This document shows positions 24,202 to 53,805 of a DNA stretch of 55,116 bases, in pieces. Within the stretch, counting starts at the first letter, position 1; every line of letters begins with the position of its first letter. The DNA is taken from NCBI GenBank assembly GCA_002929135.1, contig PESC01000041.1, positions 1 to 55,116 on the forward strand. The letters run 5' to 3'. The notes under the pieces were generated by a model, which saw only the letters and a program-made list of their open reading frames with translations, had not been told where the DNA came from and made no database searches. The stretch comes from Methylomonas sp. GTDB taxonomy: Bacteria; Pseudomonadota; Gammaproteobacteria; Methylococcales; Methylomonadaceae. Both the position numbers and the translations under genes were made by a program.

Positions 24202-24291
24202 TCATTCCCACGCTCTGCGTGGGAATGCAGGCCGGGACGCTCTGCATCCCGCAAGCTCACGCCACGCAGAGCGTGGGAATGAGGAAATCAG
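24193..24291. repeat. Compound palindrome with 30-bp perfect inverted arms
   Basis: The arms 24193-24222 and 24262-24291 are exact reverse complements over 30 bases, starting CTGATTTCCTCATTCCCACG. The left arm also takes part in a smaller palindrome, CATTCCCACGCTCTGCG and its complement, at 24203-24227. The 39-base centre contains a further copy-like stretch. It belongs to the TTCCCACG...CGTGGGAA repeat family and abuts the broken coiled-coil gene. Confidence 0.85.
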
Positions 24292-24311: not shown

Positions 24312-25643
24312 TTATGCCCCGGCAATCGACATTTGTTCGACCAGGATGGAGCCGACGCGAACATTGCCACGCAAGTCGACGTCGTTGCCAATCGCGACGA
24401 TGTTGCGCAGCATGGTTTTTAGATTACCGGCCACGGTGATTTCCTGCACCGGATATTGAATCTGGCCGTTTTCCACCCAAAATCCCGAGGCGCCGCGCGA
24501 ATAATCGCCGGTGATGCGGTTGACGCCCTGCCCCATCAGCTCGGTCACCAACAGGCCGGTATCAAGCAGCGCCAGCATGGTCTGAAAATCGCGTTCGCCC
24601 GGCTCTACCGTCAGGTTATGTACGCCGCCGGCATTGCCTGTCGATTGCATGCCCAGTTTGCGCGCCGAATAGCTGCCGAGCAGATACGACCGGAGTATGC
24701 CGTTGCTGACGATGTCGTGTGCCCGGGTGGCGACGCCTTCGGCGTCGTAGCTGGCACTGCCCAATGCGCCCGCCAGATGCGGCTGTTCGTGGATGTGGAC
24801 GAAATCCGGCAGAATCTGTTGACCGAGAGAATCCAGCAAAAACGAGGCCTTGCGATACAGGCTGCCGCCGCTGACGGCGCCGATCAATGCACCGATCAGC
24901 CCTGAGGCCATGTCCGGCGCAAACAGTACCGGGCATTGCCGGGTAGTCAGACCGCGTGCATCCCTGCGGGCAATGGTGCGTTGCGCGGCCTTTTCGCCGA
25001 TCTGTCTGGCAGGCTCCAGCTTGCTGGCGTTGCGGGCGACGCTGTACCAGTAATCACGCTGCATGGCGTCGCCGCTGCCTGCCAGCACCGAGCAGCTGAC
25101 GGAGTGCCGACTGGATTGATAGCCATGCAGAAAGCCCAGAGAGTTGCCGAATACGCGGGTGCCGCGATGGGTGTTGACCGTGGCGCCTTCGGAATTGCTG
25201 ATGGCCGGATGATAGTGACGGGCGGCGTCTTCGCATTCGATGGCCAGTTGAATGGCGGCTTCGGCGTCGATGGCCCACGGATGGTAGAGGTCGAGATCGG
25301 GGAACACCGTCGCCAGCAAGTCCGCATCGGGCAAACCGGCGCATTCATCGTCGCTGGCATGACGGGCTATGCTGCATGCCGCTTTGACGGTGTCCGCCAG
25401 CGACGTTGATGACATATCGTTGGTGCTGGCCGAGCCTTTCTTCTGGCCGAAATACACGGTAACGCCCAGGCCTTGGTCGCAGTGGTATTCCAAGGTTTCG
25501 ACCTCACCCAGCCGTGCCGATACCGACAAGCCGTTGTCGACGTTGAGCGCGGCTTCGGCGGCGCTGGCACCTTGTTGCCTGGCTTCATCGAGCACTTGCT
25601 GGACGACGACTTGCAGGCGGTTGATTTCATTTTGATTCTGCAC
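24312..25643 (-). CDS. pmbA: metalloprotease subunit PmbA/TldE
   Basis: This 443-residue protein is the TldE (PmbA) half of the TldD/TldE peptidase. In E. coli the heterodimer trims microcin B17 precursor and degrades CcdA; elsewhere it cuts RiPP leaders. The family pattern is clear: GLSVSARLGEVETLEYHCDQ, the central GGSLYRKASFLLDSLG, GGVHNLTVEPGE and the final GDYSRGASGFWVENG. It lacks the HExxxH zinc motif, as expected for the E subunit. It lies just downstream of tldD on the same strand with a 21-base gap, so they form one unit. Confidence 0.95.
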   Translation of the reverse strand: MQNQNEINRLQVVVQQVLDEARQQGASAAEAALNVDNGLSVSARLGEVETLEYHCDQGLGVTVYFGQKKGSASTNDMSSTSLADTVKAACSIARHASDDECAGLPDADLLATVFPDLDLYHPWAIDAEAAIQLAIECEDAARHYHPAISNSEGATVNTHRGTRVFGNSLGFLHGYQSSRHSVSCSVLAGSGDAMQRDYWYSVARNASKLEPARQIGEKAAQRTIARRDARGLTTRQCPVLFAPDMASGLIGALIGAVSGGSLYRKASFLLDSLGQQILPDFVHIHEQPHLAGALGSASYDAEGVATRAHDIVSNGILRSYLLGSYSARKLGMQSTGNAGGVHNLTVEPGERDFQTMLALLDTGLLVTELMGQGVNRITGDYSRGASGFWVENGQIQYPVQEITVAGNLKTMLRNIVAIGNDVDLRGNVRVGSILVEQMSIAGA

Positions 25644-34924: not shown

Positions 34925-36334
34925 TCAAATGACCATCAATTCGGCCTTGAGGGCACCGGCCGATTTCAGTGCTTCCAATATCGCCACCAGGTCGCTGGGT
35001 GCCGCACCCACGCTGTTGACCGCCTGGACGATTTCATCCAGCGACACGCCGGGGTTGAAGACGAACATGTGGTTCTTGTCCTCCTTCACCGCCACCGCCG
35101 ATTGCGGCACCACCACGGTTTCACCCGGTGAAAACGCCCCTGGCTGGCTGACTTGCGGGTCTTCGGTGATGGTGACGGTCAGGCTGCCATGAGACACCGC
35201 CGCCGGTTGCACCTTGACCTTGCTGTTGATGATGACAGTGCCGGTACGCGAATTGACGATCACCCTGGCCGGGGCATCGTCGGGCGTCAGGGTGACGTTT
35301 TCCAGCACAGAGGCAAATCCGACGCGTTGGCTGGGGTCTATCGGCGCCCGCACGCTGACCGAGGTGGCATCGATCGCCGCTGCCGTACCCTCGCCCAGGG
35401 TCTTGTTGATGGCTTCGGCCATGCGGCTGGCCGTGGTGAAGTCGGCGGTATTGAGGTTGAACACGATCTCGTTGCCCTGCTCGAACGGCGTAGCCACGGT
35501 TTGTTCTACCGTCGCGCCGCCGGGAATGCGGCCAACCAGCGGATTGTTGACGGTAATCTTCGAGCCATCCTGGCCACCGGCGGTCAAACCGCCGACGATG
35601 AGATTGCCTTGCGCCACGGCGTACACCTTGCCATCGGCACCGCGTAACGGACTCATCAGCAAGGTGCCGCCACGCAGGCTTTTGGCATCGCCGACCGACG
35701 ACACGGTCACGTCAATTTTTTGGCCCGACTTGGCAAAGGCCGGCAAATCCGCCGATATGCTGACGGCGGCAATGTTGCGGGCCAACTGGTTGAAGCCCGA
35801 CGGCAGGGTCAGGCCGTATTTGCCCATCATGTTGCGCAAGGTCTGGTTGGTGAACAGAGTTCTGTCGCCGGATCGGTCCAACCCCACCACCAGACCATAT
35901 CCAACCACCTGGTTGGTTCGGACGCCATTCATGGTCGCGATGTCCTTGATGCGTTCGGCGTGGGCCGCAAGACTCATGCACAGCAGCATCACGACGAGGG
36001 CTAGCGTCCGGGTTGCCAGGCAGCGCGTGGGAACGCATACCTGACCTCGGGTGCCGTATGGATTCCCACGCAGAGCGTGGGAACCAGAGTGAATAACGGC
36101 TGGCGTATGGGTTCCCACGCAGAGCGTGGGAACCAAGATGATGTTCTCGTTCCCACGCTCCCGCGTGGGAATGCATACCTGGCGTCGGCTGCCGTATGGG
36201 TTCCCACGCAGAACGTGGGAACCAGGATGGTGGTCTCGTTCCCACGCTCCCGCGTGGGAATGCATACCCGGCATCGGCTGCCGTATGGATTCCCACGCAG
36301 CACACGGGAACCCGAAAAGGGCTGATTTATTCAT
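34925..36334 (-). CDS. flgI: flagellar P-ring protein with repeat-expanded leader
   Basis: The mature part (about 343 residues from [20 protein letters not shown]) is a normal FlgI, which forms the P-ring around the rod in peptidoglycan. It keeps [32 protein letters not shown] and [19 protein letters not shown]. The leader is abnormal. Residues 1-7 (MNKSALF) and the hydrophobic core [17 protein letters not shown] look like two halves of one signal peptide. About 98 codons of palindromic repeat DNA (36019-36312) separate them, without a stop. The start at 36334 has GAGGATGCC upstream and sits 35 bases after flgH. Whether the protein is still exported and processed is open. Confidence 0.9.
36019..36312. 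repeat. Tandem array of paired-palindrome repeats inside flgI
   Basis: Two full 89-bp units, 36112-36200 and 36201-36289, differ at about seven positions. Each holds a hairpin TTCCCACG...CGTGGGAACC, then 38 bases further a second hairpin TTCCCACGCTCCCGCGTGGG, then GCATACC and GCCGTATGG. A further hairpin lies at 36064, a partial unit at about 36021, and a last worn one at 36290. Because 89 is not a multiple of three, the two units are read in different frames by flgI, yet neither contains a stop. Confidence 0.92.
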
Positions 36335-36369
36335 GCTGGCATCCTCAGATTTTATCGCGCAGGCCACCG

Positions 36370-37038
36370 TCAAAACGGAAACCACGGACTTAGCAGAACC
36401 CGGCCTATCCAGCCGACTTTCGCCGAATCGGCCATGGCGCCTTCGCCGGTGTACATGATGGTGGCATCGGCCAGTTTCGACGATGGCAAACTGTTGCTGG
36501 CGTCGATGTCGATGGGGCGGACGATGCCGGATACCCGGATGTATTCGTCGCCATCGGACAACGTCACCCGCTTTTCGCCACGCACCTTGAGGTTGCCGCT
36601 GGGCAGCACCTCGGTGACGGTAACACTGATGTTGCCGGTCAGCCGGTTGCTTTGCTGGGTATCGCCCTGGCCCTGAAAGCTGCGGTTGGCGTTGACTTCG
36701 GTTTCCAGACTGCGGCCCAGCACGGTTTTGGCAGCCATGCCGAACAAGGTGGGTGCTGTCACCGATACGTTGGCTTCCTTGGTTTCGCTGCTGTCGGCCT
36801 GCTTGCGCGCCGAGGTGGATTCCCTGAGCTGGATGGTCAAAATGTCACCCACCCGTCGCGCCGAGTAATCCTCGAACAAGCGCATGTCGAAATCGGCCTG
36901 ATAGATCGCGCCATTGTTCTGCGGCGGTGGCCGCAAGTCGGCAGGTTGCACGGCTGAAAAGTCGGGATCGCGTTTGGGCAGGGTGTCGCAACCGGCCAGC
37001 GCGGTGGTGAACAGGGTCAATAACATCAAATTGCGCAT
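36370..37038 (-). CDS. flgH: flagellar L-ring lipoprotein
   Basis: This 222-residue lipoprotein forms the L-ring in the outer membrane. The signal peptide ends in the lipobox LAGC (Cys 17). Family motifs include [24 protein letters not shown], the serine- and threonine-rich [46 protein letters not shown], and the final [14 protein letters not shown]. It precedes flgI with a 35-base gap and follows flgG by ten bases in the operon. Confidence 0.96.
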
Positions 37039-52839: not shown

Positions 52840-53805
52840 ATGCACGACCAGAACTTCAAAAACCTGATACTGGATTACCCGCGCCAGGCATTGGCTTTTT
52901 TTGCCCCCGAGGAAGCATCTGATGATCTGGCGCAGGCGCGCATCATTCCGGTTCGGCAAGAGCAACTGCAAGAACGCCTGGGTAACCGCTTCCGCAATCT
53001 CGACACCCCGTTGCTGGTGGAATGGCCGGACGGCAAGCGCGAAGCCCTGCTGTTTGTCATTGAAGAAGAAACCCGAAGCGACTTGTTTTCCATCTATCGT
53101 TTGGCGCATTACTGCCTGGACATCGCGGAGTTGCTAAAAACCGAACGCATCGTCCCGGTAGTGATTTTTCTCAAAGCGGGTCGGCGGCCTGCTGAATTGA
53201 AACTCGGTGGTAACCGGCATACCTACCTCAGTTTTCACTATCTGGTCTGCGATTTGAAACGGCTGTCCGCTGCCGACTACCAAGAAAGCGATAACATCGT
53301 GGCCCGGCTCAACCTGCCCAACATGCAGCATCCAAGACAACAGCGGCTGGAAATGTATTGGGCTGCTCAACTGGGTTTGGTTCGCCTCGAAACCGATCCC
53401 AATAAAATCCGTAAATACAGTGACTTCATTGATTATTATGCCGACCTGACCGAACAAGAAGTCACAGAATATCAACAGCATTACCAAACGAAAGAAGGTG
53501 AAATCATGGGCATGGTAAAAGTCTGGACAGAGCAAGGCCTGGAACAAGGCCTGGAACAAGGCCTGGAACAAGGCCTGGAACAAGGCGAACAAATAGGCAA
53601 GAAAAAGGAATGTGTCGTCTTGCTTACCCGCTTACTCCGCCGCAAATTCGGCCTGCACCCGGAGCTGGAAACAGCACTGAAACAACTGCCCAAGCTGTCA
53701 TTGGATACACTGGAAAACCTCGCGGACGACCTGCTGGATTTCAACAGCATCACCGACCTGCAAGCCTGGCTTGACCGCCGCGATGTCGAAAAGGCCGAGC
53801 AGTAA
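52840..53805 (+). CDS. Rpn-family PD-(D/E)XK protein with DUF4351
   Basis: This 321-residue protein has an N-terminal Rpn/transposase-like nuclease fold: FKNLILDYPRQALAFF, then LLVEWPDGKREALLFVIEEE with acidic residues, then IYRLAHYCLDIAELL and VPVVIFLKAG. Rpn proteins promote recombination in E. coli. The C-terminus is a DUF4351 unit (LLRRKFGLHPELETALKQLP). Between them four EQGL repeats come from a 12-bp tandem repeat. A TTG at 52813 would add nine residues. It follows the truncated relative by 35 bases. Confidence 0.8.
   Translation: MHDQNFKNLILDYPRQALAFFAPEEASDDLAQARIIPVRQEQLQERLGNRFRNLDTPLLVEWPDGKREALLFVIEEETRSDLFSIYRLAHYCLDIAELLKTERIVPVVIFLKAGRRPAELKLGGNRHTYLSFHYLVCDLKRLSAADYQESDNIVARLNLPNMQHPRQQRLEMYWAAQLGLVRLETDPNKIRKYSDFIDYYADLTEQEVTEYQQHYQTKEGEIMGMVKVWTEQGLEQGLEQGLEQGLEQGEQIGKKKECVVLLTRLLRRKFGLHPELETALKQLPKLSLDTLENLADDLLDFNSITDLQAWLDRRDVEKAEQ
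53530..53586 (+). repeat. 12-bp in-frame tandem repeat (about 4.7 copies)
   Basis: GAACAAGGCCTG is repeated four full times plus GAACAAGGC, the first copy reading GAGCAAGGCCTG. The copies are nearly identical, so the array can probably gain or lose units by slippage, changing the linker by four residues (EQGL) without a frameshift. Confidence 0.9.

Follow-up and report, generated by a model that had tools for sequence, protein, structure and literature searches.

A REPIN array lying in frame within the FlgI signal peptide of a Methylomonas-like lineage

In-frame REPs and Rickettsia elements within genes have been published (PMC3733652, PMC10969869), and the locus described here is thus of a kind already known. 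In the consulted sections of their paper, Di Nocera et al. (2013, PMC3733652) describe intragenic REPs as singles, dimers and clusters within coding genes, with N-terminal cases included, and report, for Thauera and R. conorii, REP clusters that code for 43 to 82 residues. Our locus is likewise a REP cluster within the N-terminal part of a coding gene, flgI, but differs from the cases set out there in that the array is without GTAG or CTAC, spans 98 codons and lies within a Sec signal peptide. REPINs, which are found with RAYT transposases, were described by Bertels and Rainey (2011, PMC3116915) as inverted REP doublets in many copies with matching RAYTs and with tandem arrays, and as far as that description goes the flgI repeat shares its inverted doublets, high copy number, RAYT with matching REPs and tandem arrangement. 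According to the same account, overlap with genes was seen for just 14 among the 1,067 commonest 16-mers of P. fluorescens SBW25, whereas the array here is inside a gene.

Rickettsia palindromic elements are palindromes found in frame within genes, which they are described as entering at higher frequency than REPs do (PMC3767692, PMC10969869). Judged by description, the flgI array is alike in being a palindrome in frame within a gene; the Rickettsia elements, as portrayed there, occupy many genes, some of them common to orthologues across species, in an unrelated host, whereas here one gene of one species is affected. PARCELs are palindromic coding repeats of another sort (PMC2996958). They too are tandem coding repeats with DNA dyad symmetry, for which some taxa show a link with mobile elements and membrane-targeted proteins, but by their published description they conserve a 25-residue motif in one frame, whereas the 89-bp unit in flgI is read in different frames and keeps no protein motif. 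Finally, autotransporters are described as having Sec signals whose N-terminal part is exceptionally long (PMC2805444), which resembles the very long stretch before the Sec core in FlgI; such signals are presented there as typical of a protein family, whereas the FlgI leader consists of repeat DNA in a single species. What is unusual at our locus is the site, where the n-region of a Sec signal is separated from its core, together with the size of the insert and the 89-bp unit, since the flgI frame is broken when one unit is lost or gained. A literature search of partial coverage, with supplementary tables outside it, found no report of a REP array splitting a Sec signal peptide.

The array and the flgI 5′ end

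The window, by which we mean the whole 55,116-nucleotide stretch of contig PESC01000041.1 that was analyzed, carries flgH, flgI and flgJ in the usual order on its minus strand. Translated from the native ATG, the flgI frame runs for 469 codons: MNKSALF is followed directly by 98 codons of palindromic repeat (about 36313-36020), and these by the hydrophobic signal core, the sequence AHA/ERIKD and a normal P-ring domain (Table 1). A sequence-only reading of this DNA had proposed that order as well as a leader of 126 residues, and both agree with direct reading and translation of the minus strand. It had further described two 89-bp units with partial ones beside them. Tandem Repeats Finder and a repeat comparison, in which the two units were 92% alike and further partial copies appeared, confirmed this description; in detail it had to be mended, since the array is composed of three roughly 80-bp REPINs plus a single REP, and the outer arm at either end of the array is degenerate. 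The REPINs are inverted REP pairs forming a larger hairpin, and the main unit spacing is 89 bp.

Table 1. Coordinates of the array and of the neighboring coding features in the window
Feature	Position	Strand	Remarks
flgH	36370..37038	minus	Intact neighbor upstream of flgI
Shine-Dalgarno-like GAGGA	36342..36346	minus	7 nt 5′ of the native flgI ATG; direct reading
flgI start codon ATG	36334-36332	minus	35 nt past the flgH stop codon (36372-36370); direct reading
FlgI native start and n-region, MNKSALF	36314..36334	minus	Leader begins MNK, just past flgH, in 16 of 29 parsed congeners
REPIN C	36235..36314		Outer (flgH-side) arm degenerate; pairing in the sense RNA persists, G-U pairs included
REPIN B, full	36146..36225
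Single REP (half REPIN)	36105..36134
REPIN A	36009..36087		Outer arm, toward the flgI signal core, degenerate
Tandem array	36097..36312		89-bp period, 2.4 copies, 91% matches; Tandem Repeats Finder
FlgI signal core and cleavage region	35957..36007	minus	Usual A-x-A/E site
Mature FlgI (343 aa) and stop	34925..35956	minus	PF02119, E 2.4e-135 for the whole ORF

Folding of the sense RNA over the array region is strong (z -11.5). The degenerate outer arm of REPIN C folds at -15.7 kcal/mol in the sense RNA versus -8.4 kcal/mol in the antisense RNA. The G-U pairs kept in this arm could reflect selection at the RNA level, although in the outer arm of REPIN A the hairpin is not kept. We note that altered REP arms at 36286-36314 and at 36199-36223 still pair in the sense RNA by way of G-U pairs; such cases are few.

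Comparison of flgI 5′ ends, which had been suggested as a check on the insertion, set the locus apart from its relatives. The best hits among named neighbors were mostly Methylomonas, which puts the genus at Methylomonas or very close to it. FlgI was matched in 31 of 37 genus genomes, this one among them, and we parsed 38 other FlgI 5′ ends, 29 from the genus and 9 from the order (locus L099 went unparsed). The array was absent from all 38, whose leaders are ordinary and short at 18-32 residues, counted from the first Met in range. At one locus (L055) no ATG lies in range for the leader, which may start at GTG. Within 420 nt upstream of the mature FlgI start, none of the 38 relatives had a REP half-site, and this genome had 12 half-site matches. 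That the leader begins MNK just past flgH in over half of the parsed congeners places the native start upstream of the array and the insertion within the gene. The signal core is also in good order: its highest 11-residue Kyte-Doolittle mean is 2.82, within the span of 1.82-3.29 seen in the 38 relatives, and we rejected a worn-out core on this ground.

A REPIN family with a RAYT

The repeat core, TTCCCACGC-N(2-7)-GCGTGGGAA, is present in 102 copies in this 2.57-Mb assembly (95.86% complete) versus 0-28 copies in 36 congeners, and a reversed control pattern gave 0 copies. One RAYT was detected, as an NF047646 match of 98.5 bits (cut-off 80) at G000:C14:31325-31852, flanked by one intact REP core downstream and a degenerate core upstream. 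A search with Pfam PF01797 had pointed to a RAYT-free genome, a view abandoned when a relative's RAYT and NCBIfam NF047646 revealed the gene. All 7 of the relative loci that were fetched have a RAYT-like ORF between inverted cores about 620-640 bp apart; these loci were chosen for such core pairs, or for a RAYT match between them, and the count gives no estimate of frequency. NF047646 matches numbered 0-28 in each of the 36 congeners. This genome thus combines the most REP cores in the genus with one NF047646 match, and most congeners show many RAYTs and few cores, the count concerning this core type only.

A many-copy palindrome, inverted pairs and a RAYT beside the same REPs identify the repeat as a RAYT-associated REP/REPIN. 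The sequence-only reading had named Rickettsia palindromic elements as its known analogue. That comparison stands in kind, the insertion being in frame within a gene whose orthologues are without it; the nearer relative is the RAYT-associated REP/REPIN class. Members of the GTAG REP superfamily carry an unpaired GTAG at one end, and there is no GTAG or CTAC in 36009-36314.

Other REPs were observed in the window and near the RAYT. A second REPIN lies in the window at 24205-24279, immediately downstream of the pmbA/tldD-family gene that occupies 24312-25643 on the minus strand. The window also holds a 12-bp tandem repeat at 53533-53586 (4.5 copies, 100% matches). Beside the RAYT on the same contig (L170, about 2125-2225, G000:C14), a 7-base unit (about CTGGACT) repeats in a long run, which is followed by another REPIN upstream of a gene.

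We also looked at where REPs stand relative to other genes of this genome. The sample comprised 58 cores in 29 fetched loci and 6 in the window (looser pattern), set against 104 in the genome, or roughly 60%. There were 32 distinct REP-bearing ORFs outside the window (33 rows), and 20 of them were scanned. A Pfam domain was found in 7, and in every one of these a Met separates the domain from the REP, which is upstream; the remaining 13 gave no Pfam match. One of the seven (L156) has a half-site only, and another ORF among the 20 (L147) likewise has half-sites only. Judging from this arrangement, the REPs of the seven domain-bearing ORFs probably lie outside the gene, just upstream. The proposal that the repeat readily settles in genes as a general rule is therefore not upheld, the REP being apparently extragenic in all seven; within the sampled part, again roughly 60% of cores, flgI is the only clear case of a REP inside a gene.

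Stop-poor repeats and the open frame

Because 89 is not a multiple of three, successive units are read in different frames and yet stay open, as had been noticed from the sequence. Between 36019 and 36312, all three sense frames are without stops, and one 89-bp unit set head to tail is without stops in all six frames. All three frames were open on one or the other strand in 1 of 3000 dinucleotide shuffles of the flgI array. Head-to-tail copies of a shuffled 89-bp unit were open likewise in 14% of trials with one of the two units and in 21% with the other, which indicates that most of the three-frame openness is due to repetition itself. Any given single frame was open in 13% of the array shuffles.

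The same property extends to the family. In 13 sampled arrays of at least 100 bp, 35 of 78 frames were open versus 16.2 expected from shuffles; of 47 "clusters", seven of length 10, in which single half-sites had been counted twice, were excluded. The suggestion that the repeat is stop-poor in several frames thus agrees with both flgI and the sampled arrays. Since nearly every second array frame is open, the openness of flgI needs no selection, and we rejected it as proof of selection. Stop-poor repeats do explain how such an element can survive within a gene. One further array, at L140 8856-9403 (G000:C14), is 548 bp long with cores about every 189 bp, and has two frames open throughout.

Proposed insertion, read-through and cleavage

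We consider it somewhat better than even, at about 55%, that a REPIN inserted in the FlgI signal with the frame kept, that the 126-residue leader is made, and that it is cleaved to mature FlgI. REPINs are non-autonomous hairpin elements of the RAYT transposase family. By this account one of them, presumably moved by a RAYT, would have entered between the n-region and the core of the signal peptide in this one Methylomonas-like lineage, and the site would have grown to three REPINs and a single REP, in part by tandem duplication of the 89-bp unit. The frame would have survived the insertion because the repeats are stop-poor. Translation from the native ATG with its Shine-Dalgarno would then run through the repeats to give the long precursor, and Sec and signal peptidase may still use the intact core and the AHA/E site, so that mature FlgI would be normal or at reduced yield. 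FlgI is described as normally reaching the periplasm via Sec, its signal being cleaved (PMC8298488). In this lineage the protein most likely carries the long leader at first and, as we infer, still loses it by cleavage. Weighing against this account, strong folding of the sense RNA could hinder translation, and the species is represented by one genome.

The flagellar setting speaks for this account. Among the markers looked for, flgB-flgL, the P-ring chaperone FlgA, FlhA and two flagellins (besides FlgL) are present without stops. Between mature flgI and that of the relative G009, differences at codon positions 1, 2 and 3 number 50, 32 and 186, a pattern that points to purifying selection on mature flgI since the split from G009, although this signal may be older than the insertion. 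On the other side, changes of mature FlgI on its own lineage were in excess against G009 (30 to 10, p 0.002; Fisher versus the other ten flg genes, p 0.019), and against G018 they stood at 32 to 17 (Fisher versus the other ten flg genes, p 1.0). We rejected the view that an accelerated flgI proves decay, since the acceleration is seen against G009 only.

The excess against G009 can still be counted toward an account that we think unlikely, in which the insertion disabled flgI, the long leader or RNA hairpins blocking export or translation, while flagella are being lost in a small-genome lineage. The genome would suit such a history at 2.57 Mb versus 4-5.7 Mb in 25 of 36 congeners, as would the lack of a flgI match in 6 of 37 genus genomes, all of them at most 3.7 Mb and two only 83% complete. 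The flagellar genes without stops, the intact frame and signal core of flgI, and the lack of acceleration relative to other genes versus G018 argue the other way. We note that the genomes without a FlgI match (G001, G003, G010, G019, G021 and G022) measure 2.0-3.7 Mb and that flagella may have been lost several times among small-genome members of the genus. Quite unlikely, in our estimation, is a start of flgI translation downstream of the array, which would leave the repeats in effect as 5′ untranslated sequence. In-frame GTG/ATG codons at 115-116 and TTG/GTG at 67/73 could serve, in all seven domain-bearing REP ORFs of this genome the REP precedes a Met and the domain, and Di Nocera et al. 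caution, in the part of their text consulted, that many N-terminal REPs may be extragenic on such grounds (PMC3733652). Yet the native ATG, in the same place as that of the relatives, retains a good Shine-Dalgarno upstream of the array, whereas codon 115/116 has none by eye and would give a leader of 11-12 residues with no basic residue except His.

Assembly copy number is a main doubt on the array. REPs stand at or near the end of at least four contigs (C14, C59, C6 and C4), which suggests that arrays trouble assembly, and one unit more or fewer would shift the flgI frame. Even so, we hold it improbable that the assembly has miscounted the units and produced the open frame by accident, since flgH and flgI-flgJ flank the array in the usual order and the two main units are about 8% divergent in bases, which helps assembly. 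In silico, changing the array by -1, +1 or +2 units of 89 bp gave proteins of 177, 140 and 266 residues that lack mature FlgI, and +3 units restored FlgI. This loss of frame makes the reading sensitive to assembly error, and it also makes array length a potential on/off switch. That the array does act as a motility contingency switch, recombination or slippage between 89-bp units moving flgI in and out of frame so that a mobile REPIN would be a coding phase switch inside a signal peptide, strikes us as very improbable; a literature search of partial coverage found no report of flgI phase variation.

Under the preferred reading, in which the long leader is made and then removed, flgI offers a clean case, with close-relative orthologues free of the insert, of a hairpin repeat in a conserved gene at a place where the extra protein can be cut off. 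A general question thereby becomes testable, namely whether in-frame mobile repeats can land safely in signal peptides. The lineage-specific expansion of REPINs, with 102 cores and one detected RAYT, is also linked in this way to a possible influence on motility.
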